Below the pieces are notes generated by a model. It did not search any database and was not told the origin of the DNA. It saw only the letters and a list, made by a program, of their open reading frames with translations. From Sphagnum magellanicum (lineage: Eukaryota; Streptophyta; Sphagnopsida; Sphagnales; Sphagnaceae), in NCBI GenBank assembly GCA_021904315.1, contig CM038917.1:13190041-13254040 (forward strand): 64,000 nucleotides of DNA. The letters are read 5' to 3'. Both the position numbers and the translations under genes were made by a program. Shown piece after piece: positions 3,094 through 23,520 of the stretch (position 1 is its first letter; each line of letters opens with the position of its first letter).

Positions 3094-4440
3094 AGGTCCC
3101 ACAAACTTTGGATGATTGGACATGCTCCTATCAGCCCCAACGATTTGCAAGCCCATCAGTTTTGGTCTGAGTGAACCAGCAAACCAGTGCACCATGCCAG
3201 ATGGATGGTATGTACTAACTACCCAAACATATCTGCCTACCTAGTAGGCACCAAGTGCATTACCTACCTACTTATGCCTATGTAATCACTTACATCCTTA
3301 CCTACTTGTCTACGAACACTTTTATCCAATTTCATAGGTAGTTTCAAGTAGTGTGAGGTGGAAGTGAGAGGGTTTACATGATAGGTTACCAAGGTTTCTG
3401 GTGATTCATCCAGAACTGAGTCATAAGTCATAAGGGGTTTTCAATGGATGGTGTACTGTTGGGTACTGAGTCACATAATCCATCAGTTTCACCAAACAGT
3501 TGGCGATGGAAGTACCCATGCTTGGTAGATGAGTTAAAGGTTACCAGGATGGGTAAAAGCTAGATGAACTAATTGTGATTTTGTACTGACAATAAACAAG
3601 GTGGATTCATCATGAGTCACACATGGGCGCTGGGCTATTTGAGTGAATCTCAATGCAAGATGGGCATTGACACAATCCACACATGTACACACACAAATAT
3701 AGTGCTTTTCCCCTTTCTTTTCTTTTCTTTTTTGGTTTCAAATTTCTAATGTAACTGAAGTGGCAATCATCCATGAGAAAATTAAATTGAATCTGTTTAC
3801 AAACAAAAAAAAATGAAAGTAAAAAAATAAAAATTCAGCATCCTTAATGACAATCTTAAGAATAAAACTTCATGGTGACATGGATGTTCATGGTTGTAAC
3901 TTTTTCCGTGTGATGTAAATGCAAACCTCTCCCTACTCTAAAAATATATATAAAACTTCACTTCCTTCATTCAGATGATATGGATGGCACAAGTAAAATA
4001 CTACCTTCAATTCTCTGATTGTCACTTTAGTTACAAATGTGAAAGCACTTGAAGAAAATTTGGAGTGTAAGTGGAGGGCACCTTACATACAGGAAGTTCC
4101 CTCCTCAAAATTGAGAGTGACATTATGCCTACTCCTTCAGGGTGGGAGGGAAATTATGCCTACTTATAGGTGTAAGAATCATCCCACTATTGACAAGTAG
4201 ACATAAGAACCCCCCATTCATACGCCTTGTGATCTACGTAGGTTTGGTTCATAATAAAATTTGTTTCGTGCTTTATGATAGGTAAAGTGCATGGTTGGGG
4301 GACATTCCCAAAATGTGGAGCTGGACTCAGATTTTGCCTCATCCTAGGCTCCTTATTTAGAGAATATCCCCACCCTAGGGCTTTATCCTACACAAAAATT
4401 CCTCGAAAAAACATCGCATGTAACTGACAGAAGCTAGTTG
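3094..4440. other. Non-coding, AT-rich stretch with ACCTACCTACTTA-type repeats
   Basis: No ORF of note. At about 3225-3310 lies a cluster of TACCTACCTACTTA-like words that recurs near 19110-19250 and 43590-43700, pointing to a dispersed repeat family. An A-rich stretch follows near 3800. Confidence 0.45.
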
Positions 4441-5300
4441 CTGGAGACAATCAATATATTATGTTGGACGTAAAATGACAGTTCTTTCATGCGGCCCAGG
4501 ATCAGTTCAGGACAATCTTGTCACAAATCAAACCCATAATTTCCCAGTCCTCGTAAATGCGCCAGCAGCCAGATACTTTTCATGTGGCTAAGCAATGAGC
4601 ATATTCGGCAAGAAGAGCGCGGCGTCAGAGCCTGCGAGCACGTGCTACTGCTCTGTTGCTGATAATATGCAGGGTGGGCCGAGTTTAGTGCCTTAAGATT
4701 TCTTTCCTTAATTGGGGATGGGTTATTTAGGATATTATATGCGTTTGAGTATTCTCTACTACCATGTTTTTCGAACAGTGATTTTAGGAGGCTGTCGTCG
4801 CTCGGGATAACTCCGCAGATGATCGTCACCTAGAAGCACAGATGTGGATATTGCAGTATTGCTGTCCGCCCAGATAGCTTGCATTCACACGGCGAAGGAT
4901 CGATGGAAATGGGAGAAAGCTGGCTGGCAGCATCGGGGCACGGCACGGAATAATGCTCAAAGGATCACGGCATATGCCGGCATCAGGGACGGTACATTAC
5001 ATCGCGCTTCCTGCCATCATTTTCGTCCACCACTTCCTGCTGCCAAGTCCCGCTGTTTTTGGTGTTGTCAGTATTTGGTTTTGGTGTTTTTGCTGTTGCT
5101 GTTAGCAGTTTTTGGTGCCATGCGATAAACTGGCTAAGATGTATGAATCACGATACTTACATATGTTACAAACGCTGTTGGCTTCTTCTTCATCGCGATC
5201 ATCATCCTCATAATGGTTTCAACGGGATACATTATAATACAAATAGCAAATGCTATTGGCTTCATCATCATCAGATCATGTGACCCAGCACCCCCCAATG
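4440..5300 (+). other. Higher-GC island with an unrecognised 94-codon ORF
   Basis: This patch is clearly richer in G+C and CpG than its flanks. It holds a 94-codon plus-strand frame (4844-5128) that ends in a hydrophobic Leu/Val-rich segment near residues 75-90. The frame has no domain I recognise, no homologous neighbour and no clear splice partner. It may be a fragment of a gene or transposon, or an unmethylated island. Overlapping frames on both strands make a chance ORF quite possible. Confidence 0.2.
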
Positions 5301-8291: not shown

Positions 8292-10226
8292 CACTAATAC
8301 AAAAGTGGGGTGTAGTTCACTAACCTAAATCACTACGGGATTTTGAAAGTGAAATAGGTTCACAACATTTTGATGATTTTTGCTTAATTAAAATGATTTC
8401 ACTATAAGGTCACTATGTAAACGTCATGTTTCATTACTAATTCACTATTATAATTTACTATGGTAAATTGGTTTTTTTATGTTATTTTAAATACCCTATG
8501 TTATTTTAGGTTATACCTTATGTTATTTTAGGCCACCTTAGTTATTTTAACTTATACCTTAAGTTATTATAAGTTATTATACCCTCGACCATACCCTAAG
8601 TTATTATAGGTTATTATACCTTAAGGTATTTAAACTTATTTTAAGCTTTATATTTTAAATTATTTTAAATTAAATTATTTAACTAACCCTAGGTTATACT
8701 TTAGGTTATTTAAGGTCATTATATTTTATATTATTATACATTATTTTATTTAGAAGTATAATAATCTAAAATAACCTGAAATAAAATATAATAACCTAAA
8801 GTGAAATTACATATAATAAATTACATATAATAATTTAAGTGGAATAACTTAGTGTAGAATAATTTAAAATAATTGATAATAACATTGATAAAATAATTTA
8901 GACTACCCAAGAATAATTTGTGTACCTAAAATAACCAATAATAACCTATGACAAAATAACGAATAATAACATAAGATTAAATAATTTAAAATAGTAAAAA
9001 ACAACCAAAAATAACCTATTATAAAATAACCAATACTAATTCAAAATAGAATAACCAATAATAACATGTGATATAATAACCAAAATTAATTTATGATAAA
9101 TAACCAATAATAACTTATGGTAAATAACATTGAATGGCCAAAAATAATAACTTATGATAAAATAGCCAAAAATAACCTATGGTAAATAGTTTAAAATATC
9201 CAAGAATAGCCAATGCTAAAATAATAAAAAATAACTTAAAGTAAAATAATTTAAATAACCAATAATGGCCTATGATAGAATAACCAATAATAGTATATGA
9301 TAAAATAGCCAGCAATAATTTACGATAAAATATCCAAAAATAGCTTGATGTAAAAAAATCTAGAATAGCTAGTAATAGCCTACAATGTCATAACCAATAA
9401 TAGCTACGGTAAATAACTTAAAATATCCAATAATAGTTTATGATAGAATAACCAACAATAACCTATGGTAAATTAGCTAAAAATAGTCAAAATAACGTAT
9501 GATAAAATAGTGGAAAATAGGCAACAATAACCTACAATAAAATAATCAATAATAACTTAAAATAGCTAGAATAGCTAATGGTAAAATAATTTAGAATAAC
9601 CAACAATAGAATCTAATATAATAAGAACAAATGGTAATACAACTTATAATAACATATAATAACCTATAATAACCAACAATAAAATAGGCGTTAATAGCCT
9701 ATGGTAAAATAGTTTTAAATAATCAACAATGGTGTTTGATAAAATAACCTACAATAGTTTATGGTAGAATAACAAAAAATTACCAAAAATTGCCTAGAAT
9801 GGCCTATGGTAAAATAACCAAAATTTGCTAAGAATAACCAAGGGTTAAAAAGAATGTGCATCATAATATGTTATGACCAAAAAATATCATTTATTTAAAT
9901 AATGGTTCAATGGTTAAGGACTTGTTCCTTAAACATGGAAATAAAAAAAGGTTGGTGGGAAAGGTGTTTAGGTGGGCTAGGTACTTAACTTAGGTTAAGT
10001 AGTTTAATTTAAGTTGTGATTAACTACTAATGATTTTGTTATTGATGATTTAATTATTAGTGAATTTGATTAATTGTTGGTGATCAATTCAATTAACTAT
10101 TACTGAATTCCCTACTTGTAGCAATTGGTCCCCGTTTATTAAAGGGTTGTTCACTTTCACCATGGTAAATTTATCCAATTTCATTCAAAATCTATTGAAA
10201 CACAAAATGAACATATTGGTGTAGTG
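8292..10226. mobile_element. Non-autonomous CACTA-like DNA transposon with 3-bp target duplication
   Basis: The left end begins CACTAATACAAAAGTGGGG. The right end, read on the minus strand from 10226, begins CACTACACCAATATGTTC. Both thus start with CACTA and share several further positions. The trinucleotide TAG flanks the element directly on both sides (8289-8291 and 10227-10229), matching the 3-bp target duplication of the CACTA/EnSpm superfamily. No transposase frame is present; the interior is a ~230-bp conserved head, an ATAACC-rich minisatellite and a ~350-bp tail. Head and tail recur in the nested elements near 20-24.7 kb. CACTA assignment rests on termini and duplication only, with no transposase evidence. 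Confidence 0.55.
8740..9850. repeat. ATAACC-rich degenerate minisatellite inside the CACTA-like element
   Basis: About 1.1 kb of short degenerate units of the form AATAACCTATGGTAAAATA, with about 15-18 bp between successive AATAACC words. The array is heavily diverged, A+T above 75 percent by eye, and bounded by the conserved head and tail of the host element. The same kind of array fills the related elements at 20-23.5 kb. Confidence 0.75.
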
Positions 10227-10326
10227 TAGGTAAAAAAAAATTTAATGGGTCGGTATATATACATACCTACTTAATATGTAAGTAGGGTACAAGGCAAATA
10301 ATATATAACATTTTTATCTATTTGTT

Positions 10327-10640
10327 ATGCCCGTACATGGCCTCATATATGATGGCTAGTTACGGGCATGCCCATCCTGCCTTTTAGGGTTAATGTAAGT
10401 TTTTAGGGTTAATGTATGTACTTAGGTGATTGTACACTATTAGGTGCTTAGGGTTTCAGCTTATTGGCGGCTATATAAAAGGCCAAGCCCTTCTCTTCTC
10501 TTTTTAGTTTTTCTAATATTCCTTTGTCAATCAGAGTTTCCTCCATAGTCAGATTAGATGTTTAGATGCTCACGATGGCTATAACACGACCACCGTCTAC
10601 ATACACTACATGTTCTTTCCTTCTTTGCAATTCAATTCTA
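10327..10640 (+). promoter_or_regulatory. Possible 5' LTR or promoter region of the gypsy element
   Basis: Begins TGTTATGCCCGTACATGGCC, and an inverted partner of TGCCCGTA (TACGGGCA) follows within 40 bp. A good TATA box (TATATAAAAGG, 10472-10482) is followed by a pyrimidine-rich leader. TG start, TATA box and position upstream of gag suggest a 5' LTR. However, I found no matching copy at the 3' side (18.9-19.3 kb) and no convincing primer-binding site, so this stays an inference. Confidence 0.35.
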
Positions 10641-10979
10641 AAAAACTCCTTTCTACTGCTTAATGTTGAAAGTGGCAAATTTCTTTTCGCTTTGAATTAT
10701 TGAATTTCTTTTTGTTGTTAATGTTGTTGCTACTGGTGTTGCGACTGCTTGAGGGAGCTTGTGATGTTACACCTTCGCCAACCAATAGTGCCAAGATCAG
10801 AGGAGCTGGGAAGAGCGAGACCAAACAAGGAGTGACATATCCTAGAGCAAGTTTCAAAACTCTCTTTCTCTTTTTCTTTTTTTCGCTTTTTTTTTCTCTT
10901 TCTTTCATGCGCAAAGACACAGGAGGAGGCAATTGGAGACTCTTGAAACTACTAAGTAAATTTTTTTTAAAAAAATAAG

Positions 10980-11180
10980 TTTATGCAACGCCACCTACCA
11001 TTGTTACAAAACAACGCAGCGTCACCCACCATCGCTATAAAATAACGCAGTGCTGCCCACCATTAGCGCAATCGTTGCTGAGTAATGCCACGAACTTGTG
11101 GCGCATGCTACGCCGCGATGTCGTCAGCCATCACCATGGAGTTCACGGGCGCTTTGCAGCGCTGTGATTTCTCATGTCAC
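10980..11180. repeat. CpG-rich patch with short tandem repeat in the gypsy leader
   Basis: Three imperfect copies of a ~32-bp unit (AACGCAGCGTCACCCACCATC and variants) are followed by further CG-containing sequence up to about 11160. It stands out from the CpG-poor surroundings. It lies between the putative LTR and gag; no function can be assigned. Confidence 0.5.
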
Positions 11181-11498
11181 ATCACTAACTTCCATTTGTC
11201 CACAGACTTCTGTCCATCCACCGACATTTTTTTTAAAAATTTTTTTTAAATAAAAAAATAATTATTAATATTAATTAGTACGTACATCTACATACTCTCA
11301 TTTTAATACATACACTTATGTAATTTTATTAATACATAAATATATGATTATTTCTTCCTCTACTTTGTCATTTAACACTAGTGATCACAAAAACTAAAAT
11401 TTGCTTAAGGTATGTTCTCTTCAGCACTTCACATTTCAATTTCCATTACAATTGCATTTAATTGCATGGTTGTGTTAGAACTTTATAATTAGTGCTTT

Positions 11499-12826
11499 AT
11501 GTTGTTACCAAATTTTGAGGCATGGGACAACACCATGTCCTCGAATGATGAAAGCACCAATGTTCAGCCAAAACCAAGGTATCAGTTACAAAGTAACACA
11601 CAATCATTTGAGTCAATTTTTTTAAATTCACGATCTTCACGACAGTACCATCAAACATCTACAGCACACCGTCATCTAGTACAACTCCTACCAAGAATTC
11701 AGGTTCAGGTTACATTACATCAATGGTACCTTAGAGTCCATTTGGAGAGGTTATTCAGTGGGGTACACCTATTGCCGGACCTGCTTTCACACCATCACCG
11801 TATATTCCGTTACAAGCCGTGACCTCTACACCCATATACACCATGGAGGTCAGAAATTCCTATGGGAAAATTACGAAGTTTAATGGAAGGCCAGGTACCA
11901 TTTCTTTGAGGGAGTTCAAGGCAACTTTCTCAACTTTGGTCTGCGAATTGGAATTCAAGTATGGCACTAATTACACCGAGGCGTTCGCATTCAAACAACT
12001 AGCCTGTTATGTGCACTATGAGGCATTAGATGTCTATGAGTAACATTTTTCAAGGATTTTGGGCATCACCTAAATCCCCAATCCAGCTTATGCCACATCC
12101 ATTACCATCGCCTTTTAAGTTGCACTATAAGTTGCCATTGCACATCATGGGATTATGCCCAATAATCCAAATTCGGTACTTACTTTAGTAAACATTTCTC
12201 CTCAACAACTCATTGTTGCTACTACAAACATTCTTCCCACCATCGATGCACTAGCTTTTACTGATCCAATGGGGGAATTCTTTCAAGTTCTTGAGTTAGA
12301 ATTTTCGGTCAAGAGTTCGGAAAAAATTCTACAGTTCGCCACCTTCTCTCAATAAAAAGATGAAACCCTCAAGATGCTTTGCAAAATGCTTCTCAAGCTT
12401 AAAAAGGATACTCACAACATCACAGACCTGGAAGCTGCCCATTGGTATAATCATTCGTTGGAAGGTACTTCAACACTCCATGCAAAGGTTTTACAACGGG
12501 TTTTTGCAGAATTTGGAGATTCGTACACTTTGCTAGATGTGTACAACATTTTTAAAAAGTTAGATTTAGCTCATGCACACTATGAGGCTAATACTATAAG
12601 GTTTCCCTCACATTCAAGGCCTCAACCTCCACTAATTGCGCCAACTAGATCATCACATTCTTTTTCAAAGGCTAAAGCGATGCACTTTACTACACCCATG
12701 AATGCAATATTCCTTTCGATGATCTCTTTTATGATTATTGTGGAAAAGAATGACATCATGAAGCTGTTTGTTTTGCCAAATTCCCGAAACGGAAGCAACT
12801 TCGATTACCATGACAAAATCTGGTAG
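11499..12826 (+). pseudogene. gag remnant of the gypsy element
   Basis: Broken capsid-like coding region. The frame at 11819-12043 contains a stretch typical of retrotransposon gag proteins (SLREFKATFSTLVCELEFKY). After a gap with stops, 12374-12826 continues with Leu-rich gag helices (TDLEAAHWYNHSLEGT, VFAEFGDSYTLLDVYNIFKK). The Pro/Ser/Arg-rich tail near 12600-12660 resembles the linker before a zinc knuckle. The protein would have formed the virus-like particle shell. At least two frames and several stops separate the parts, so it cannot make a capsid. The assignment rests on order relative to protease and RT plus helix composition; there is no catalytic motif to confirm it. Confidence 0.65.
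12730..12771 (+). pseudogene. Degenerate CCHC zinc knuckle of gag
   Basis: In frame one can read Y-D-Y-C-G-K-E-stop-H-H-E-A-V-C. The spacing fits C-x2-C-x4-H-x4-C with the first Cys replaced by Tyr (TAT for TGT) and a TGA stop at the glycine position usual before the His. Gag zinc knuckles bind the element RNA for packaging. Both lesions are single transitions from a functional knuckle. Confidence 0.6.
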
Positions 12827-13959
12827 CATCTTCCATTGCCCCTCAATCAAAAGCCAAGGCACCCCAGCCTTCCACTCAGGTTTTCCCCACCAAGGGTAAT
12901 TCCAGTAAGAATGTTAAGAAGAAGGAGCACAATGCTGACAAGAGGGAGGTGCTTCAAGCCCATGCCGCTCAAGTTCAAACTCTACAGATGAACTCATATC
13001 ATTAAGGGTTTAACTTGCTAATCTAAAAAGCAAGTCTTTCCAACCAACTAGTCATGCCCAACCTATACAAGGTTCAAGATCACGAAAGGGACCTCCTAGG
13101 TCATTATATGGCCTTTCACATGATGCCACGGTTAGGGAATATGTTTTTTCATGTGCACACAATTTTAGTTTTAACCCAGAAATTGCCATTTCTTTTTGCC
13201 CTTCCTACTTTGCAACATAAAAGGCTAATGTGGCACCCATAGTTTTTGCCACTAGGCAAATAATTCAGATTGATGGATTCACATCTGGTTTAAGTCCTAT
13301 TACTAGGGTTAGAGGAGCTTGAACAATCATGACATAATCTTTTTGTCCTCTCAACACGGAAGAAGAACACACCTTGTTGGCAAGGGGGGAGGAGACTATT
13401 ACATCGCAAGCTATTAGGGCATCAAATTCTCATGTCCCAGGAGTACATGTACATCAGGAAAACACACAATTTTTTGCTGATCAATTTATGGAATGCCAAC
13501 TTTAAATGCATGAAGTGGCGCAAAAACTTGTGAATACACTGTTGTTTTGTTTTCAAATTTTGAAACTAAGCACCAGGGACATAATTGCAATATTAAAAGA
13601 TACCCTACACACTACATCAAGTCCTCTACCAATCCCTGATCCACATGCTAAAAGGGTCCCATCCAACACCTTAGAAAGACATTCAATTGGCTCACGTGTT
13701 GTAGATGGTGTTCGTAATATGGTAATTAGTTTTAGCATGGTTAAACTAGTGGGCTCTCCTACCTCTAATTCTACATTCACATATCAAAAGGGAGTTAAAA
13801 ACACCTCACTTGTGGATTTGTTACTCAACAAAAGCATTGTGGATAGCCATTCTCTTCATGAAATATCTCACTCATTTCCGAAGGTGGTGCCTAGTGAGAG
13901 AACTTCCATCACCACCAGAGTTGCCATTGTCGACAATACCGAGTCAATAATCCAAAATG

Positions 13960-14412
13960 GGAGGACATACACCCAGAGTGGTACTTCTTGATACAAGTGC
14001 CTAACTAATGATTCTTGGAGTTCAATTCGCCAAGAAAATGGGCATGTTTGATTCCAAACTATGGAAATCTATGTGGCAAATTCGCACCATTGGTGGGAAC
14101 GTAAAGGAGGTACTTGGGGAGAGCTCAAATTTGATTACATTTAATTTCAATGAAAGTAGAGATCATGAGCTTTGCCTACATGTCAGATGTTTAGTCACCA
14201 ATGCCACCAGTTACGATGTGCTCATTGGGCAAGAGGCCCTATTTTCACCAAGATTCACAATTAATAACTGGTTCAAGCATGCGTACTACCAAGTGGATTG
14301 GGAGACTGATGACCACCACCTGGGATACATACCCTTTGATGTACATGGGAACCATAATCTTATGGCTCACCACTGCATGCTCAAGGAAGCACACACCATT
14401 TCCTACATCTAA
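13960..14412 (+). pseudogene. Retropepsin-like aspartic protease remnant
   Basis: The frame reads PRVVLLDTSA (13972-14001), then a stop, then LMILGVQFAKKMGM. This matches the retropepsin pattern of a hydrophobic strand leading into D-T/S-G/S-A followed by a hydrophobic turn. The catalytic Asp codon is at 13990-13992. The open part 14008-14412 continues with the second lobe, including a VLIGQEAL-like stretch near 14217-14243. The enzyme would have processed the polyprotein. The TAA at 14002-14004, just after the active-site loop, inactivates this copy. Frame and position between gag and the methyltransferase-like domain support the call. Confidence 0.65.
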
Positions 14413-14640
14413 CAAACTAGCCATGAATGGATAGAGGGAGATGAAGAGGAGACAATTTACGCCCAAGCTACTAAAAGCTTGAAGATGATTCCTACGAACA
14501 TTCAACACAAACCAAAGGTTTTATAGAGGTTCAAAGCAGCCCACGAGCCCTTCGTCAAAACTTTGTCTAGTTTTGAAAACACATAGAGCCATGGTGAACC
14601 GATTAAATTCGTATTTCGTTAACTAGTCACCTAGACACTG

Positions 14641-15605
14641 CTTAAAGAGGGGATTACATTACCAGAGCTTTTTGGTGGCATTGGTACAGGTCCTGAAGCC
14701 CTACTATAGTCAGGGATGGTGGTTTGAAAGTATTTCTACATGGACATTGATCTTGTTGCAAGGCAAGTGGCAACATCGAAAATGAGGGAGCTCATAACCA
14801 GATTTCCACAACAGTTTGCAACCACCGCATGGAAGGCCAATTTCATGTTTTTGCCTTCTAACATACAACTAATTCAAAAGAAACATATGGAATTATTTGG
14901 CCCCGTGGACCTCATCATTTCAGGTTGGGAATGTCAAGGATTTTCAACAACTCAATTTGGAAAAGGTTTGAGTGACACAAGATCCAATCTCTTCACGGAC
15001 ATGGTACGATTGATCACCTGGGCTCAATCCATTTCTCTTACACTTGGTTATGTAATTGAAATCACCCCTTCTTAGCTTGACTACAGGGAAAAAGTCCAGG
15101 AGCACTACACAGCTGGTCAAACATTACCTTGGAGAGTCGTTCCTACTCGACGCAACACAATGTGGTTCTTATGTGCACCTACCACATAATTGGTAGACCA
15201 ACCTTGCACCACTCTCAGTTCTGTAGTTACCTCTGAGATACACCATAGAGACCCCAACCTGCAGGTTTTTCACATATTGTATGATCAAAGCTCTTGCCAA
15301 CCAATTACAAGGCAAGAGAAACTTGTTTGGTTTCCTTCGAACACAATAGGAAAACTAGAGGTGCTTGGGCCACCTTTGTTTCCTTCCCATGAGCAAACGC
15401 CTTTCAGGGAGATGGACCAGGCTTGGTATATTATCGTGTTTTAGCCATTTGGGATGAACTAAACCTAGAAGAAAGAAGAAGGGCTGTGGGGTTCCAAATT
15501 GGCACTACTAGTCACACCAAGGTGACTAAATTGAAGCGTAACACTCTACTAGGGAGAGGCATGGACCTGAACTCCCTTACATGGTTGTTAGTAACCTGTG
15601 TACTC
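14641..15605 (+). pseudogene. DNA cytosine-5-methyltransferase-like domain inside the gypsy polyprotein
   Basis: C5-methyltransferase motifs appear in the correct order. Motif I: ELFGGIGTG (14665-14691), the AdoMet loop. Motif IV: GWECQGFS (14923-14946), catalytic Cys codon 14932-14934, with Glu where the usual Pro of PCQ stands. Then GLSDTRSNLF, like the conserved G-x-D-x-R-S-x-L-F helix. Motif VI: IEITP (15055-15069), near the usual ENV. Motif VIII remnant: DATQCGSYVHLPHNW (15149-15193), with its Arg residues lost. Finally a C-terminal part, ERRRAVGF then LLGRGMDLNSLTWLL (~15475-15590), resembling motifs IX-X. Motif VIII (D-A-x5-H-x3-R-x-W type) is closest to DNMT3/DRM enzymes. Stops at 14717, 14735 and 15073 and two frame changes make it inactive. 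It sits between protease and RT and shares the element's decay, so it belongs to the transposon. Confidence 0.75.
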
Positions 15606-15739
15606 TTTCAAATGTACACAACATTAGCATTTATTCAATTAGCTTGCATTTTTGGCGATGTGACCACATGGCACCCCGACCAAGTACACTTGCTTATCTT
15701 CAACATTCTACATTTCACTCTTAGTGTTGGGGGGTAGGA

Positions 15740-16225
15740 GGTACCATGTAATTTGACTCAAGTTGTTTTTAATACACTTGGATGTACATCAGCTTCTGGA
15801 GAAACAATTACAACCTTCTATGAATCTGCACAGTTGGATAGTGGAAAACCCAATACACCAAGTTCATTAAACACACTTTCCAATTCCATTCCATGTGTTC
15901 CAACTACCCTTTCGTTATGGGGAACCAGCTCACCAAGAAGGAGAGAGACCGCGTCATAGATTTGTTAATTAAGTATGAGAATGTGTTTGCATTCTCAATG
16001 AAAGACTTATGTAGGTGTAAGACTATATAGTTTTCTATAAACCTTACAAATGAGATCGTCTATTGGAGGAGGTATAGGTTGAATAAGCATGAGTGGGAAT
16101 TGGTAGATGAAAGATGCAAAAAGCTCCATGAGGTTGGTCTCATTCTGTTGTCAAGTTATAATTTCGCAACCATTACAATAATGCCAGCAAAAAAGGATTA
16201 AGTTGGATTATGGACTGAAAAAAGG
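15740..16225 (+). pseudogene. Linker between methyltransferase-like domain and RT
   Basis: A Ser/Thr/Pro-rich open piece (15753-15959) is followed, across a stop, by a segment reading DRVIDLLIKYENVFAFSMKD. That segment resembles the conserved stretch just upstream of RT in gypsy polyproteins (LL-x2-Y-x-D-V-F-A). The RT N-terminus follows at about 16080. No enzymatic motif is present. Confidence 0.5.
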
Positions 16226-16880
16226 ATGTGTGAGGATTATAGGCCTTTGAACCTATTTACACCTCAAGACAAGTACCCCATGCCCATCCTTGAAGAGCTG
16301 TTTGATAGCATTGGAAACTCAAACATCTTCACAATTGTGGATTTAAGGCAAGGCTTCAACCAAATTGTGCTCATTGCAAAGGATTGTAAGAAAACCACAT
16401 TTCATGGAAACAACAAGTTGTGGGAATGGCTTGTGATGTCTTTTGGATTGAAGAATGCACCTGTCTTCTTTTAGCGAATCATGAACCAGGTTTTCGAAGG
16501 GGTATATTTCTTGAAGTGCTACATAGATGACGTCTTAATGCATAGTAAGGGACTCCTATAGCATTTGGCTCATCTTGATAAGTTATTCAAGAGGTTCCAT
16601 GAAGTCAATATGAAGATCCATCCTAAAAAGTGTGAGTTTGTTGTCACTTCAGTAGTTTACTTTGGACATAAAATTTTGCCAAATGGTATTATGGTTCATT
16701 GGGCCAAAGTAGTAGCCATTTTAGAGATGCCCAATCCTATTGATGTTCACACTTTGAGGAGCTTCATCGGACTATGTAATTACTATAAAATTTGTGTCCA
16801 AGATTTTAGTACTATTGCTCATCCTCTCTATGAATTATTAAAAAAGGATGTTGCTTGGACATGGAATGATGAAGCTTAGG
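16040..16880 (+). pseudogene. Ty3/gypsy reverse transcriptase remnant
   Basis: All RT landmarks are in one frame. These are MCEDYRPLN then DKYPMPILEELFD (RT domain 1-2), FTIVDLRQGFNQI (first catalytic Asp), MSFGLKNAPVFF (domain 4) and YIDDVLMHS (16520-16546, the two catalytic Asp of the Y-x-D-D box). Then come VYFGHKILPNG and the thumb-proximal LRSFIGLCNYYKICVQDFS. The YIDD form and the FGLKNAP signature are typical of Ty3/gypsy. In-frame stops at about 16472, 16559 and 16877 disable it. The enzyme would have copied element RNA into DNA in the particle. Confidence 0.9.
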
Positions 16881-17345
16881 AAGCTTTCAACACACTCAAG
16901 GAAAAGCTTTAAAAGTTCCCCATTATGAGAAAACTTGATTTCAGCAAGGTCTTCATTCTACACAATATCTGGAATGCTCTCAGTATTGGTGTTATTCTTG
17001 GCCAATTTGATGAAGAAAGCAAGGAATATGTTATCACCTATGCATCTCGAAACAACAACAAGGCTAAAAGTAATTACTTTTCATACGAGGGGGAGTGCCT
17101 TATTGTTGTATGGGCCGTCATACATTTCAGGCCCTATCTTTATGGCACCAATTTCACTTTGTATATCGACCACCAGCCTATTAAGTGGTTGATGACCAAC
17201 GATAAATTTACTGGTAAGTTAGTTCGTTGGGCGCTTATACTTTAAAAGTATGAGTTCAAAGTTATTCACTGACCTGGTATTACACATCAAAACGTGGATA
17301 CCATATCACGAAAACCCCTCACTACCTTTGAAGAAATTTCAAAAG
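16881..17345 (+). pseudogene. RNase H domain remnant of the gypsy element
   Basis: Continues the RT frame. Recognisable parts are AFNTLKEKL and the segment SIGVILGQFDEESKEYVITY. Then come NYFSYEGECLIVVWAVIHFR (the usual Y-x3-E-x-E-x-L-A-x-V-x-A motif) and LYIDHQPIKWL (the usual T-D-H-x-P-L motif). The strand with the first catalytic Asp has become SKVFILHNIWNA, where D-A-S would be expected. Stops fall at 16910, 17243 and 17270. Family knowledge: this domain degrades the RNA strand of the hybrid during reverse transcription. Confidence 0.85.
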
Positions 17346-17440
17346 CCAAGTAAGACTTCTACCAAATTTTAGCAATACATGTATCTTATGCATCTAGTCA
17401 TCTTGCACTACTATAATGTAACCTAGTTGAGCATCCCATT

Positions 17441-18640
17441 GTGCATATATGGGAGGACTTGGACACTCTAAAGTTTCTTCAACATGGGGAATACCCTCCC
17501 CAAGTTACATCAAGTCATCGGGATCACATACAACAACAGTCCAAACGCTACTCATGGAGGGACAATGACCTCGTTCGATGCTTACCACAAGACGATAGAG
17601 TGGTTCCTCCACCACATGAATGGCTTTGTCTTATTCAGAAGGTACACTCGAAGCTTAGACACTTTGGAATTAAGTGCATTTATAGCCTTTTCGCTCCTCA
17701 TTACCATTGGAGAAGTATGTATGCTCAAGTCAGAGATGTCATTACTAGGTGTGAACAATGCGATAAATTGAGAACTTCCTTCTCCTTTCAACAGCTCACG
17801 CTTTCTCCACTCCCTATTCAAGGCATGTTTTATCGTTGGTCATGTGATTTAACTAAAAAGTTACCACAGACCTCCAAGGGTAATGTGTACATCATGATTA
17901 TGATTGAACGTTTTTCAAAATGGGTCGAGTTTGTTGCGTTGCTAGACAAGTAATCACTAGCACCAGCTAGGCTTTTTTACAACATGTCTTAAGTAGGTCT
18001 AGGCTTGTGCTAAATGCCTTACTAATCAAAAATTCCAAGACCTACTTGACCATGCTCTCATTAACCATCGCCAGACTTTAGGAGATCACCCCCAAGCTGA
18101 TGGCTTTGCAAAGAGGACGATTTAGACAAGAAAGGACTTTGGAAGATTTGCCTCACTAGGAACAAAGAAAATTGGGACTTGGCCCTCCCTTACATCGCTA
18201 TGGGTTACGAGATGTCCAAACACGCCTCTTTGTCTCATTTCTCTACTTACATTTTATTTTTTGGGAGACATCCCATTCCACTTTCTTCCATTGCTACTCA
18301 AATGGACTAGGTTGTGGACTTGGATTCTCCATCCACTTAGGTTAAGGCCATCGCAGAGAGGGCTACTCTATTCAAGAGGGTTATGCCCGTGGCCATGGAA
18401 AACTTGTCCATTGCATAACATTGAAACACCTTACGGTATGCACACACACAAGGTGCTAGTTACAAACCTAAGGTGAGACAATTTGATGTTGGTGACTTTG
18501 TATATCTCCAACAACAACCTAATGATATTTTAGACACTTTTTCCGATCACATTATCTTAAGGATTAAGGCAATTAAGCCTTTAGGTGTGTTGGAGTTGTA
18601 AGGAGATGACAAACGCACAATTCGGGATCACTTTAAAAAT
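17441..18640 (+). pseudogene. Integrase remnant (HHCC finger, core, GPY/F-like module)
   Basis: The N-terminal zinc finger is visible as HSKLRHFG, then DVITRCEQCDK, i.e. H-x4-H and C-x2-C (about 17645-17765). The core begins at about 17840 with the first-Asp strand (WSCDLTKKL) and continues to ERFSKWVEFV. The region around the second Asp is damaged by stops and a small deletion near 18000-18040. The third-acid region reads DHPQADGFAKRTI with Lys where Glu is expected. A distal module reads FDVGDFVYLQQQ, then ILRIKAIKPLGVLEL, like the GPY/F region that binds DNA or chromatin. It once joined element DNA to the genome; it is now inactive. Confidence 0.85.
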
Positions 18641-18715
18641 TGTGCACCCTGCCACTTGCCGAACTTGGATCCTACCATCATCATGTCAACTTGGATTCCT
18701 CCACTTGACTACCCA

Positions 18716-18850
18716 TGTCAGGTATGTTAGCGGATAGACGATGCTAATCAAATGTTGTTTTGTGATAAGTGTAATGGTGGATACCATTTCTTCTGCCTCA
18801 AGTCGAAACTCACTCAAGTTCTTGCCAACATTTGGTATTGTTCATCATGT
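18716..18850 (+). pseudogene. PHD finger at the C-terminus of the integrase
   Basis: In the RT-integrase frame the residues give C-x2-C-x11-C-x2-C-x4-H-x2-C-x14-C-x2-C, an exact C4HC3 PHD-finger spacing (first Cys codon 18716-18718, last 18848-18850). The core reads MLFCDKCNGGYHFFCL, then IWYCSSC, including the Trp two residues before the last Cys pair that is typical of PHD fingers. The only lesion is a TAG directly after the second Cys (18728-18730). PHD fingers bind histone H3 tails. Placed where chromoviruses carry a chromodomain, it may have directed integration to particular chromatin (inference). Confidence 0.8.
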
Positions 18851-19079
18851 TATCCTACAACACCTTGATTTCTACTCAGACCATGCCACATTTTTCCCAG
18901 CTCAGGTCTGGGGTGGGGATACATGAGAATTTCATCTTAGCCTCCTCTTGGGCATTGTATATGTATGTGTGTGCATCTCTTTTTGGTTGATTAGTTTCTA
19001 CCTTTGATTGGTTTTAGTCTTTTTGTTTAATAGAATTTATTATGGATTTACACCCTTATGACACCATACATCACGACAC

Positions 19080-19270
19080 TACACATCACGACATATTATT
19101 ATTTGCACCCTACTTACATATTACCTATCTACGTAATAACTTACAACCTATTACCTACCTACTTAGGTAATTCACAACCTACCTATACTTAACCTACTAC
19201 CTACATACATACCTACCTAGGTTAAACTAAGTAGGGTAGCTAGTTAGGTGGGCTAGGGTAATTAATTAGG
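19080..19270. repeat. TACCTACCTACTTA-type repeat cluster
   Basis: Dense copies of ACCTACCTA and complementary TAGGTAGG words with partial inverted arrangement, related to clusters near 3.2 kb and 43.6 kb. It lies just beyond the gypsy coding region. No gene occurs from here to 20020. Confidence 0.5.
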
Positions 19271-21699
19271 CTAAGCAAGCTAGTTTGATAAACGAGGGTC
19301 CAAATATGTTGGTGCACCTTGTACATTGTTTTGGAGATGGCTTAAAAAGATGGATGGATATATGTATTTAAATGAATGGTTGATGGGGCATATAATATGG
19401 ACGAATTTATGATGTAATATGACTCAATTAATGGATGGACAATGTGGCATATAATATTGATGAATGGATTATATAACATGTAACAATGGTGGCAATGTGT
19501 CAACAAAAAATTGAATTACATTTGTTGAAATTAGAAACTAGTCATGTCAATTTGCAAAACTAAACATTAGTTAACATCCTAATTATAGCCACATAATGGG
19601 AGTTCATTTTATATTACATTTTCATTTAAACTTTGAGTTTTCTTTTTGCTTTGGTTTGATTTTGTTTTCAATTACTTTTGTTTAAGCCTAACTTGTGTTT
19701 AAATTTTAACCCAGATGTAGTTTATTAATTTTTGGATTTTTTTATAAGAATGGACCTTTTTTGGCTGTGGGTAACTTCAAATCTTTCACTTTGGGAGTTC
19801 AAACATTCATTATTAATTTATTTATAAGTGGCTTTAATTTTTTCAATATATTCAAGTTTTAAAAAAAAAATTCAAATGTTGTAGTCTTTAAACATTCTTG
19901 TTATTAAACATATTAAAATCATATGGTGTCAATGTAAATAAATGTGGATAGCACAAGGTTCACCAAGCTTATGGAGTTTTGAAACCATTGTCACACATAC
20001 CATTCAATTTATAATGTTCAAATCATTTGTCTAAAAGTGGGATGCAATTCACTAACTTAAATAACTATGAAATTTTGAAAGTGAAATAGGCTCACATCAC
20101 CTTAGTCATTTCACCTTGTTTAAAGTTGTGTCATTATAAGGTTATTATGTAATTTTCATGTTTTGCTATTAATTGACATAATTCATTACTAAATGAATCA
20201 ATTCACTATAGTAAATTTGTTTTTCTTAATGTTATTTAAAATTATTTTAGGTTATTCCACCCTAAATTATTATAAATTATTTTCAACTATTATAGGCAAG
20301 CCCACTATAAATTATTTTAAATTATTCCACCCTAGGTTATTTTTAAGTATTTAATTTAGGTTCTTTTTGGTTATTTTCAATTATTTCGCATTAGTCTATT
20401 TAAAATTATTTTTTTATTATTATTATTTTAAGTTATTTAAAATTATTCCACTTGAAATTATTATAAGTTTTTATTTGTTATTCTACCATAAGCTATTATC
20501 AGCATTATTATTTTGAATCATTATAAGTTATTTTAGGTTATATACCCTAGGTTATACCTTAAGCTATTATAACATAGACCAATTAAAGGTTACATAACTT
20601 AAAATAACTTAAAGTGGGATAATTTAAAATAACAAAAAGTAACATAAGGTGGAATAGTTTGAAATAACCAAAAAAACCTAAAGTGAAATAGTTTAAAATA
20701 ATTAAAAATTACTTAAGGTAAATTAATTTAAAATAATGTACAGTGGAATAGAAAGAAAATAACCTAGGGTGAAATAGCCTAAAACGACTAAGAATAACAT
20801 AAGGTAAAAACCTAAAATAACCTAGGGTGAAATAATTTAGAATAATAAAAAATACCCTAGGGTGCTATAACCTAAAATAAGTTAAGGTGGATGAATTGAA
20901 AATAACAATAACTTAGGGCTAATTTAAAATCCTAGCTTATAGTAGGTTAAAAATAACCTACATTATCTTACACTAACTTAGGACTAATTTAGGACTAACA
21001 TAAGAACTCATCATACAATAACTTACACATATGTTAAGATAGAGTGTAAATAATAATGTGTGGTGACAAATCATTTCATTTATTTAAATAATGTTCAAAT
21101 GGTTAAAGACTTGTTTTTAAAACATGGATACACTATTACAAAAATGAGGTGCAGTTCACGAACTTAAATCACTATGGGACCTTAAAAATGAAATAAATTC
21201 ATTGCATTTTATTAACTTCACCTTAATTAAAGTTATTTCATTATAATATCAATATGTAAACATCATGTTTCGTTACCAGTTAACATAATTCACTATTATA
21301 ATTTATTGTAGTAAATAGGTTTATTTTTATGTTTTTAAAAATATTATATATATGCTACTTTATGATATACCTTATATTATTTTAAGTTATTTAAGTTATT
21401 TAAGTTATTTAACTTATACCTTGTGCTATTATAAGTTATTATAGGATATTATAAATTATTATACCATAAACTATTATACGTTATTTTACCTTAAGGTATT
21501 TTAACTAGTTTATTATAAATTTTTAAATTATTATAAATTAAATTATTCAGCTAACCTTAGGCTAAACCTTAAGTTATTTTATTTTAAATTAATATATGTT
21601 ATTTCAAGTTATACTTTAAATTATTCAAGGTCATTCTATTTTATGTTATTATAAATTATTTTATCTTAAATATAATATATAACTTTAAATATTTAAAAT

Positions 21700-23520
21700 A
21701 CCCTATAATATAATAATTAGTAATAGCATATGATATTATAACATTGAATATCCAACAATTTATAATACAATAATCACCAATAATCGTAATATAATAATTT
21801 CCAATGGCTTATAATGGAATAACCATCAATACCCATTAATAGAATAAGCACCAATATCCATTAATATAATAACATTAATAACCATCAATATCCACCAATA
21901 ACCATTAATAACCACCAAAAACCATCAATATCCATCAATAGAATGTCCACCAACCAATAGCCATTAATAAAATAACCACCAATAACCACTAATATCCACT
22001 AATACAATAACCATTAATAACCATCAATATCCATTAATATAATAACCACCAACAACCATTAATATAATAACCACCAATAACCAGTAATATAATAACCATT
22101 AATAACCACCAATAACCAGTAATATAATAACCATTAATAACCACCAATAACCAGTAATATAATAACCATTAATAACCACCAATAACCAGTAATATAATAA
22201 CCATTAATAACCACCAATAACCAGTAATATAATAACCATTAATAACCACCAATAACCAGTAATATAATAACCATTAATAACCACCAATAACTAGTAATAT
22301 AATAATCATTAATAACCACCAATAACTAGTAATATAATAGTCATTAATAACCACCAATAGTCACTAATATAATAGCCATTAAAAAACACCAATATCCACT
22401 AATAAAATAGCCACCAATAGCCATAATATAATAATCATCAATAACCACTAATATAATAACCATCAATAAGCACTAATATCCACCAATAGAATAGCCACCA
22501 ATAACCATAATATAATAATCACCAATAACCACTAATATAATAACCATTAATAAGCACCAATATTCACCAATAAAATACCCACCAATAGCCATTAATATAA
22601 TAGTCATTAATAGAATAACCACCAATAACCATAAATAGAATAGCAGCTAATAACCATTAATAAAATAACAACCAATAACCATTAATAAAATAGCCACCAA
22701 TAACCATTCATAGAATAGCCACCAATAGCCATTAATAGAATAACCACCAATAACCATTAACATAATAATCACCAATCGTCATTAATAGAATAGTCACCAA
22801 TGGTCATCAATAGAATAGTCACTAATATCCATTAATAAAATAGTCACCAATAGCCATTAACATAATAGTCACTAATAACCCGTAATAGAATAGTCACCAA
22901 TAACTTGTAATAGAATAATCATCAATAACCCATAATAAAATAGTCACCAATAGCCACCAATATAATAACTACTAATAACCATTAATAAAATAACCACCAA
23001 TAAGCATTAATAAACTAACCATTAATAACCACTAATAACCACCGATAAAATAACCATTAATAGCCACAGATAAAATAGATACCAATAGCCATTAATAACC
23101 ACCAATAACCCTAATAAAATAACAACTAATAGCCATATATTAGGATTGGTTAAGATTGTCAAAAATAATGTAGGGTGAATTAATCTATAATAAACAAAAG
23201 TAGCTAAAGGTTAAATAGCCTATAATAACCTATAATTACTAATAATAACATAAGGTGAAATAACTTTCAATAGCCAAAAATAACTTATAATAGTTACAAG
23301 TAGCCTAAGTTGAAATAATTTACAATAGCCAAAAATAACATAGAATAGCCAAAAAATTTACAACATCCAAAAATAACTTAAGGTGAAATAAGATTAAGTA
23401 GACAAAAGTAATTTATAATAACCAAAAATAACCATAAATAGCCGTAAATAATGTAAGGTGAAATAATTTAAATTAATGAAAAATAGTCATATAATAATTG
23501 AAAGTAATTTTAAATAAATA
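21700..23520. repeat. ATAACC-rich minisatellite array
   Basis: About 1.8 kb of degenerate units built on AATAACCACCAATAACCATT, with variants such as AATAGTCACC and AATAACCCGT. Divergence rises toward both edges, while the centre (22066-22330) is nearly perfect. There is essentially no open frame. It forms the core of the nested CACTA-like element. Confidence 0.85.
22066..22330. repeat. Homogeneous 35-bp tandem array
   Basis: About seven head-to-tail copies of a 35-bp unit made of two related halves (CCACCAATAACCAGTAATAT and AATAACCATTAATAA). Several consecutive copies are identical and the last copies carry CCAG to CTAG changes. This is a recent higher-order expansion inside the older degenerate array. 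Confidence 0.9.

Follow-up and report, generated by a model that had tools for sequence, protein, structure and literature searches.

Retrotransposons that encode a cytosine-5 DNA methyltransferase (DNMT) have been described in Klebsormidium, whose gypsy elements carry a Dnmt3-type domain under purifying selection together with DIRS-like repeats, and in dinoflagellates, where SymbioDIRS-Dnmt3 and SymbioLINE-Dnmt are presented as independent acquisitions and the DIRS domains methylate CG in yeast; DIRS elements also carry an adenine-type methyltransferase (accessible portions of de Mendoza et al. 2018, PMC5890265). The words moss and Sphagnum are absent from the accessible text of that paper, section 5 of PMC12344493 covers streptophytes and dinoflagellates and in its accessible part adds no land-plant or chlorophyte case, and the accessible parts of PMC6453930, PMC10952607 and PMC9033089 do not mention DNMT-bearing retrotransposons in mosses, liverworts or chlorophytes. 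Here we analyze a window of 64,000 nucleotides from Sphagnum magellanicum (GCA_021904315.1, contig CM038917.1, positions 13,190,041 to 13,254,040, forward strand; contig C11 in our numbering), in which a segment between a protease and a reverse transcriptase (RT) is a decayed DNMT3-type domain of a Ty3/gypsy lineage whose members occur in mosses, liverworts, a charophyte and chlorophytes.

Like KnitGypsy-Dnmt3 of Klebsormidium nitens, as far as its description is accessible (PMC5890265), these are long terminal repeat (LTR) gypsy elements whose Pol holds a non-rearranged Dnmt3-type domain under purifying selection and which have DIRS-like repeats. Unlike KnitGypsy-Dnmt3 in that description, they occur in mosses, liverworts, Closterium and chlorophytes, encode a PHD finger, have a predicted leaky stop codon in some lineages and two positions for the DNMT, and have defined integrase-type ends with a 4-bp duplication. 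With SymbioDIRS-Dnmt3 and SymbioLINE-Dnmt they share a retrotransposon-encoded DNMT under purifying selection, but those are a DIRS element and a long interspersed nuclear element (LINE), respectively, and not gypsy (PMC5890265, accessible portions).

A sequence-only reading of the window had placed C5-methyltransferase motifs between protease and RT, and this was borne out. The DNA_methylase family profile search it proposed gave a significant match in the open piece 14728–15072 (Pfam, E 6.4e-8, 32.8 bits, cut-off 22), and the motifs were located: ELFGGIGTG near 14665, GWECQGFS near 14924 and VIEITP near 15052, with DATQCGSY near 15149 and LLGRGMDLNS near 15547 further 3'. DATQCGSY is the motif VIII region, frameshifted in the window copy and followed by a stop. 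Alignment to an intact relative places the domain between about 14650 (motif I) and 15647, in two frames of 66% and 77% identity. Pfam also matched the RT (16202–16471, E 7.7e-8) and the integrase zinc domain (17417–17950, E 3.2e-10); the pieces 15393–15734 and 14005–14409 had no Pfam match of their own. By homology to the intact relative, the order is gag, protease, DNMT, RT, RNase H, integrase and PHD finger, in an element that spans 10323 to 19093, is flanked by TATT on both sides and has the form A-body-B, A and B being terminal units. The PHD finger, the element ends and a second family go beyond the sequence-only reading. The features of the window copy are as follows.

10319–10322, no strand: left 4-bp target site duplication TATT, matched by 19094–19097
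10323–10638, + strand: terminal unit A, 5' end of the integrated element, starts TGT; 78% identity to A of copy L012
10472 and 10506, + strand: TATA box and predicted RNA start region, respectively, within unit A
10635–10647, + strand: putative self-priming primer-binding site, decayed in the window
11816–12987, + strand: gag remnant (tblastn with the gag part of protein P0001)
13866–14547, + strand: aspartic protease remnant (tblastn with P0001 700–930)
14650–15647, + strand: DNMT3-type C5-methyltransferase domain, decayed, with stops and a frameshift around motif VIII (Pfam and homology)
16013–16852, + strand: RT remnant (Pfam and homology)
16850–17359, + strand: RNase H remnant (homology)
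17570–18415, + strand: integrase remnant, zinc-binding and core (Pfam and homology)
18686–18865, + strand: PHD finger remnant with one inner stop; 78% identity to the P0001 PHD finger
18905–18918, + strand: G-rich tract, putative polypurine tract, directly before B
18919–19093, + strand: terminal unit B, 3' end of the integrated element, ends ACA; 85% identity to B of L012
19094–19097, no strand: right 4-bp target site duplication TATT

On either side, at 9008–9845 and 20213–21881 of the window, the element is flanked by AT-rich arrays in which a loose repeat (about AAAATAACC...) recurs; the arrays are partly inverted relative to each other.

The genome (439 Mb, 31 contigs) gave 124 listed matches to PF00145, a few of them host genes, and at least 126 matches to the DNMT domain itself; because 125 of 1061 candidates were scored, genome match counts are lower bounds. 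One copy, L009 on contig C17, is a single uninterrupted frame of 2379 amino acids with Pfam matches to protease (728–824), DNA_methylase (1025–1112), RT (1487–1641) and PHD (2330–2374), and with RNase H and the integrase zinc and core domains between RT and PHD. The gypsy Pol order (PR, RVT_1, RT_RNaseH, Integrase_H2C2, rve) was found in P0001. Comparing the best 40 of 127 RT matches with 66 of the 126 DNMT places, we found a listed DNMT match at the expected place in 34, covering at least 282 of 320 residues. Five of the remaining six were inspected; four keep a whole DNMT broken by frameshifts, and L051 has only its last 45 residues. The sixth, L021, has its DNMT nearby on the opposite strand. 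Thus, 39 of the 40 RT copies hold the DNMT in full or nearly so. The sequence-only reading had held that the domain belongs to the transposon and would be refuted by copies lacking it, and on both counts these copies support it. A host or foreign methyltransferase gene that landed in or beside this one copy is virtually excluded by the at least 126 domain matches, the constant place beside RT, the frame that DNMT and RT share in intact copies, and the relatives in other plants and algae. Stop-codon recoding in the window family was also rejected, since the inner stops differ in place among the five long-framed copies that have one. In L021 (C17:19327100–19331700) the opposite orientations of DNMT and RT indicate an inversion or a nested insertion.

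The DNMT domain is constrained like RT in this genome. Summed over pairs of 12 younger copies, the ratio of nonsynonymous to synonymous differences (pN/pS) was 0.235 (DNMT), 0.234 (RT), 0.268 (protease) and 0.326 (RNase H); the 13 older copies gave 0.409 (DNMT) and 0.443 (RT), higher because of decay, as expected. The copies were hand-picked, and L006–L008, L023, L026, L036, the second family (L001, L003, L004) and the window copy stand outside the sums. Motifs I, IV, VI, VIII and X are in conventional order and not in the rearranged order of DRM (VI–X before I–IV), and the predicted fold of the domain is that of a DNMT3 catalytic domain, both as in DNMT3; its best solved relatives by sequence and fold are DNMT3A and DNMT3B. 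The BAH domain, which in CMT and MET1 goes with a DNMT1-type catalytic domain, and the chromodomain of CMT gave no match at E ≤ 0.1 in four frames. It is almost certain that this is a transposable element (TE)-borne, folded and constrained domain of DNMT3 type. Relative to DNMT3A and DNMT3B, the domain is about 20–26% identical and has ECQ or PCQ where they have PCN, and the element polyprotein lacks an ADD or PWWP domain. In the window family, motif IV is ECQ with the catalytic Cys in 32 of 32 rows, rather than the PCN or PCQ of DNMT3, and the motif VI Glu is present in 31 of 32. The second moss family, whose DNMT is 41–42% identical to that of the window family, has GWPCQGHS and ENVP, with PCQ in all three copies. 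In the wider set, each of the two element groups has ECQ as well as PCQ, along with a few other forms: GWECQ in 17 and GWPCQ in 11 rows where DNMT precedes RT, and in 18 and 13 of the other rows, the remainder differing (some with DCS or SCE).

Among the candidate loci we identified no host DNMT3 gene in this genome; no search with a host DNMT3 as query was made. L037 was rejected as it has no frame of at least 120 amino acids, and L038 as it is another element copy. L002 (C17:13028485) and L005 (C15:12755590) are exons of host DRM-type methyltransferases, with the motifs SPCNNLSG and SPCQNFSG.

In the second moss family the gag-protease-DNMT frame ends in TAG CAA CTA in three of three copies, and in L043, whose contig is filed under a cyanobacterial metagenome-assembled genome (MAG), it ends in TAG CAA TCA. 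Both fit UAG-CAR-YYA, the readthrough context of tobacco mosaic virus. RT continues in the same frame past the UAG in L001, L004 and L043; L003 has a frameshift beyond this point. Among liverwort gene models, six (P0036, P0040, P0041, P0043, P0046, P0048) end 62–78 amino acids past the DNMT, consistent with termination at such a stop, and other liverwort models are cut inside the DNMT or annotated through into RT (P0038, P0042, P0044, P0055). The window family has no stop after the DNMT and its intact frame is continuous. Where present, the predicted leaky UAG would have the DNMT made at the level of Gag. Such gag-linked expression would also put the enzyme near RNA, and RNA is raised as a target for LINE elements in the accessible portions of PMC5890265. 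Still, an enzyme that methylates RNA (genomic RNA or primer) is quite improbable, given that the closest solved relatives by sequence and fold, DNMT3A and DNMT3B, act on DNA; DNA is probably the substrate.

Protein searches found DNMT-bearing polyproteins in Marchantia, Calypogeia, Closterium, Haematococcus, Monoraphidium, Chromochloris (from the label Chrzof1) and many metagenomic sources, and DNMT-bearing matches in the form of short or broken gene models in Sphagnum troendelagicum, S. jensenii and S. fallax; no protein named Klebsormidium nitens was among the matches listed. The expectation that a land-plant copy would extend or connect to the charophyte and dinoflagellate reports is supported. 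They come in two orders: protease-DNMT-RT in mosses, liverworts, Closterium and some metagenomic sequences, and RNaseH-DNMT-integrase in the named chlorophytes and most metagenomic sequences. Two insertion points in Pol might reflect independent captures of DNMT3-type domains, one by bryophyte and charophyte elements and one by chlorophyte elements; a separate capture has been argued for Klebsormidium alone (PMC5890265, accessible portions). Against this, an RT tree of 128 sequences unites the DNMT-bearing elements (23 of the first order, 47 of the second) in one clade (0.849), which also holds seven elements without a found DNMT; the 47 form one subclade (0.914), placed next to or within the 23 and containing none of them, and inner supports among the 23 are low. 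That tree comprises proteins with an RT match of at least 230 amino acids plus the partial L003b, covers neither the Calypogeia nor the Chromochloris proteins, and has an outgroup thinned by 14 of the 16 Cordylochernes proteins P0154–P0169. A DNMT tree with eight outgroups, from 32 hand-picked of 76 TE domains, likewise nests the RNaseH-DNMT-integrase order (99), with the window family as its sister (87), and a PHD finger occurs in both groups. In the same tree, TE domains, DNMT3A and DNMT3-like phage enzymes group (100) against dcm-type enzymes. Monophyly of the TE domains, set against phage enzymes and, as host DNMT3, human DNMT3A fragments only, with no plant host DNMT3, has a support of 55, which favors separate captures, as does an earlier tree of domains of at least 290 amino acids rooted on DNMT3A alone. 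There, the protease-DNMT-RT order is a clade (0.968) and the root, one long branch (0.717), falls among the other order, unlike in the RT tree, so this tree does not fix the direction of the move within Pol. On balance, we consider independent captures unlikely; the simplest history would be one capture and one move within Pol, and transfer between hosts may also have occurred.

As for the source of the domain, 177 of 50,697 phage records matched that of the second family at E ≤ 1e-5 (best 29% identical over 95%), and a profile of 14 TE domains scored DNMT3A pieces at 76.8 bits, a Vibrio phage enzyme at 77.0 and S-CBS2 at 71.1. Because phage enzymes score like DNMT3A, the domain may or may not be of host origin. 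A scan of IMG/VR gave one relative, L042 (IMGVR_UViG_3300044799_000109, 3267–4571), a C5-methyltransferase on a phage-like contig, with a GWPCQG motif IV like that of the element. A scan of GTDB gave four: the gypsy element L043 and three bacterial-type methyltransferases (L044–L046).

Other gypsy integrases carry a chromodomain at the C-terminus, as in chromoviruses, which are Ty3/gypsy elements with a chromodomain after the integrase. Here, too, a chromatin reader stands at the integrase C-terminus, but it is a PHD finger (PF00628, 5.4e-11 in the intact copy), closest to those of KMT2D and KMT2C, then KDM5D, WSTF, KAT6A and UHRF1. Several of the proteins whose PHD fingers resemble it read the H3 tail. 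A PHD finger was recognized in 12 of 23 DNMT-before-RT elements, in 42 of 47 DNMT-after-RNase-H elements and in none of the Closterium-type proteins. Protein P0031 has two.

DIRS/PAT-like elements and TOC1 of Chlamydomonas have split direct repeats of the form A...B-A-B; DIRS/PAT elements integrate by a tyrosine recombinase, with no duplication of the target. The elements here share the A...B-A-B repeats, but have a DDE-type integrase (rve) and a 4-bp duplication; a search of four frames at E ≤ 0.1 listed no tyrosine-recombinase family. The window family carries unit A (311 bp) at the 5' end, and the 3' end is either B alone (178 bp; L009, L013, L016 and the window copy) or B-GC-A-B (L010, L012, L014, L015). 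Among the eight 9.5-kb copies examined, neither A nor B was matched in L011, and A was missing from the 5' end of L010. Split direct repeats were seen at both ends in L012 and L015 (the second B of L015 is cut by the locus end) and partly in L014, L010 and L041 showing the 3' end only; no copy had a complete repeat at both ends, as plain LTRs would be. The termini are TGT...ACA, with a 4-bp duplication in four of four testable copies: TATT in the window, CTCT in L009 and CTTG in a second-family copy on C18, all with B alone, and CAGC in L012. Both 3' forms also occur in the second family (L039; L041). Repeated units are 99.0% identical for A (L012, L015) and 97.8%, 98.9% and 100% for B (L012, L014, L010), and the insertions are therefore rather recent.

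The inner junction CACGACA-GC-TGTCATG is identical in both moss families and reads CACGACA-GC-TGTCACG in the L043/L058 contig. Allowing one mismatch, it occurs 106 times in the genome (both strands, palindromic variants counted twice) and its reversed control 0 times; of the 40 best RT copies, at least 18 have the junction 1.8–3.1 kb 3' of the RT. After one RT copy, two inner junctions stand 488 bp apart (G000:C4:3308682 and 3309170), which would fit three copies of the repeat unit. Upstream of B is a G-rich tract, and unit A contains a TATA box. The last 2 nt of A together with the 12 nt that follow form a 14-nt stretch that, in L012 and L016, is exactly complementary to sequence located 32 nt past the TATA-box start; in L009 and L015 it is off by one base. 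Tf1-type self-priming has this arrangement. No such signal was found in the second family, where the longest complement is 8 nt.

A transcript from A to A would have the repeat B-GC-A whereas the integrase ends are A...B, and the two are therefore circular permutations of each other. The plain reading would be a circular DNA cut at the junction. The two forms could instead stem from LTR rearrangement of the ordinary sort or from insertion in tandem, without any circle, since recombination between two B units could turn A-body-B-GC-A-B into A-body-B, and the circle is predicted from sequence. One contig, CADCWO010000201.1 (L043, L055, L058), from a MAG labelled Synechococcales cyanobacterium, carries a gypsy-DNMT element, and its ends overlap by 127 bp and close to a circle with a B-GC-A junction; this may be a real circle or an assembly-graph cycle. 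Both forms share TGT...ACA ends and the 4-bp duplication (three copies of the first, one of the second), the GC spacer and its flanks are conserved in three lineages, and the repeat, taken from the start of B to the end of A, is not bounded by TG...CA; these points make an origin with no circle a doubtful alternative.

We give a probability of about 0.68 to our best explanation as a whole, including the following life cycle. The element's protease would cut a polyprotein of gag, protease, DNMT, RT, RNase H, integrase and PHD finger, so that DNMT is packaged in every particle; where the leaky UAG is present (the second moss family and one other element), it would put DNMT in every Gag-protease chain and RT-integrase in few. 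RNA would run from unit A to the second A and, in the window family, be self-primed. The reverse-transcribed DNA would have the replicative repeat B-GC-A and then be circularized; integrase would cut ACGACA-GC-TGTCA, lose GC and insert DNA with TGT...ACA ends and a 4-bp duplication. The PHD finger would steer insertion to histone tails. Ahead of insertion or during it, the DNMT would add methyl groups to cytosines in the element's own DNA, making the new copy resemble host DNA. Chances are even that the element's own cDNA or circle is the main methylation target.

Several observations weigh against this explanation. ECQ for PCQ beside the catalytic Cys, in the whole window family, is an unusual change. 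KnitGypsy-Dnmt3, the nearest assayed relative, gave no methylation in yeast, which its authors call inconclusive (PMC5890265, accessible portions). CpG observed/expected is 0.38 in the L009 frame (window family, ECQ), close to the 0.31 and 0.37 of host DRM exons, against 0.25 in the PCQ family (L001, L003, L039) and 0.75 in L043; we therefore rejected CpG depletion as proof of self-methylation for the window family, whose composition shows no sign of it. Eleven of the 23 DNMT-before-RT elements lack a recognized PHD finger. Four PHD-bearing relatives (P0250, P0257, P0260, P0268) have no recognizable DNMT, apparently through loss, and DNMT therefore seems dispensable there. The 4-bp duplication of the B-GC-A-B form is known from one copy, L012. 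The ECQ motif, which many relatives share, and the yeast result would also suit a subunit with no activity or a structural role, comparable to DNMT3L beside DNMT3A, that binds DNA or Gag without methylating. We think this unlikely, as the catalytic Cys, the motif VI Glu and the motif VIII region are retained, several lineages keep PCQ and ENV, and a complete catalytic fold is predicted.

Going beyond our best explanation, we tentatively speculate that these elements are a distinct kind of LTR-type retrotransposon, whose integrase would act on circular DNA through the palindromic junction in the replicative repeat. Circle-using retroelements may have acquired DNA methyltransferases repeatedly (adenine-type in DIRS; DNMT3-type in SymbioDIRS, in Klebsormidium and here) because naked nuclear circles need self-marking before integration, and the PHD finger and the DNMT may act jointly to direct copies methylated in advance to selected chromatin.

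The open-access literature searched yielded no account of retrotransposons with a DNMT in mosses, liverworts or chlorophytes, and priority is uncertain; what appears to be new is the presence in land plants and chlorophytes, the PHD finger, the two DNMT positions, the leaky stop and the integrase-type ends of permuted repeats. Cytosine methylation is how hosts silence transposons, and an element with its own DNMT is therefore a handle on why a parasite would want methylation. The DNMT has been kept in chlorophyte, charophyte and land-plant lineages, and the repeat structure suggests an unrecognized use of circular DNA by a DDE integrase. Marchantia, a genetically tractable model plant, carries such elements, which makes the question testable.
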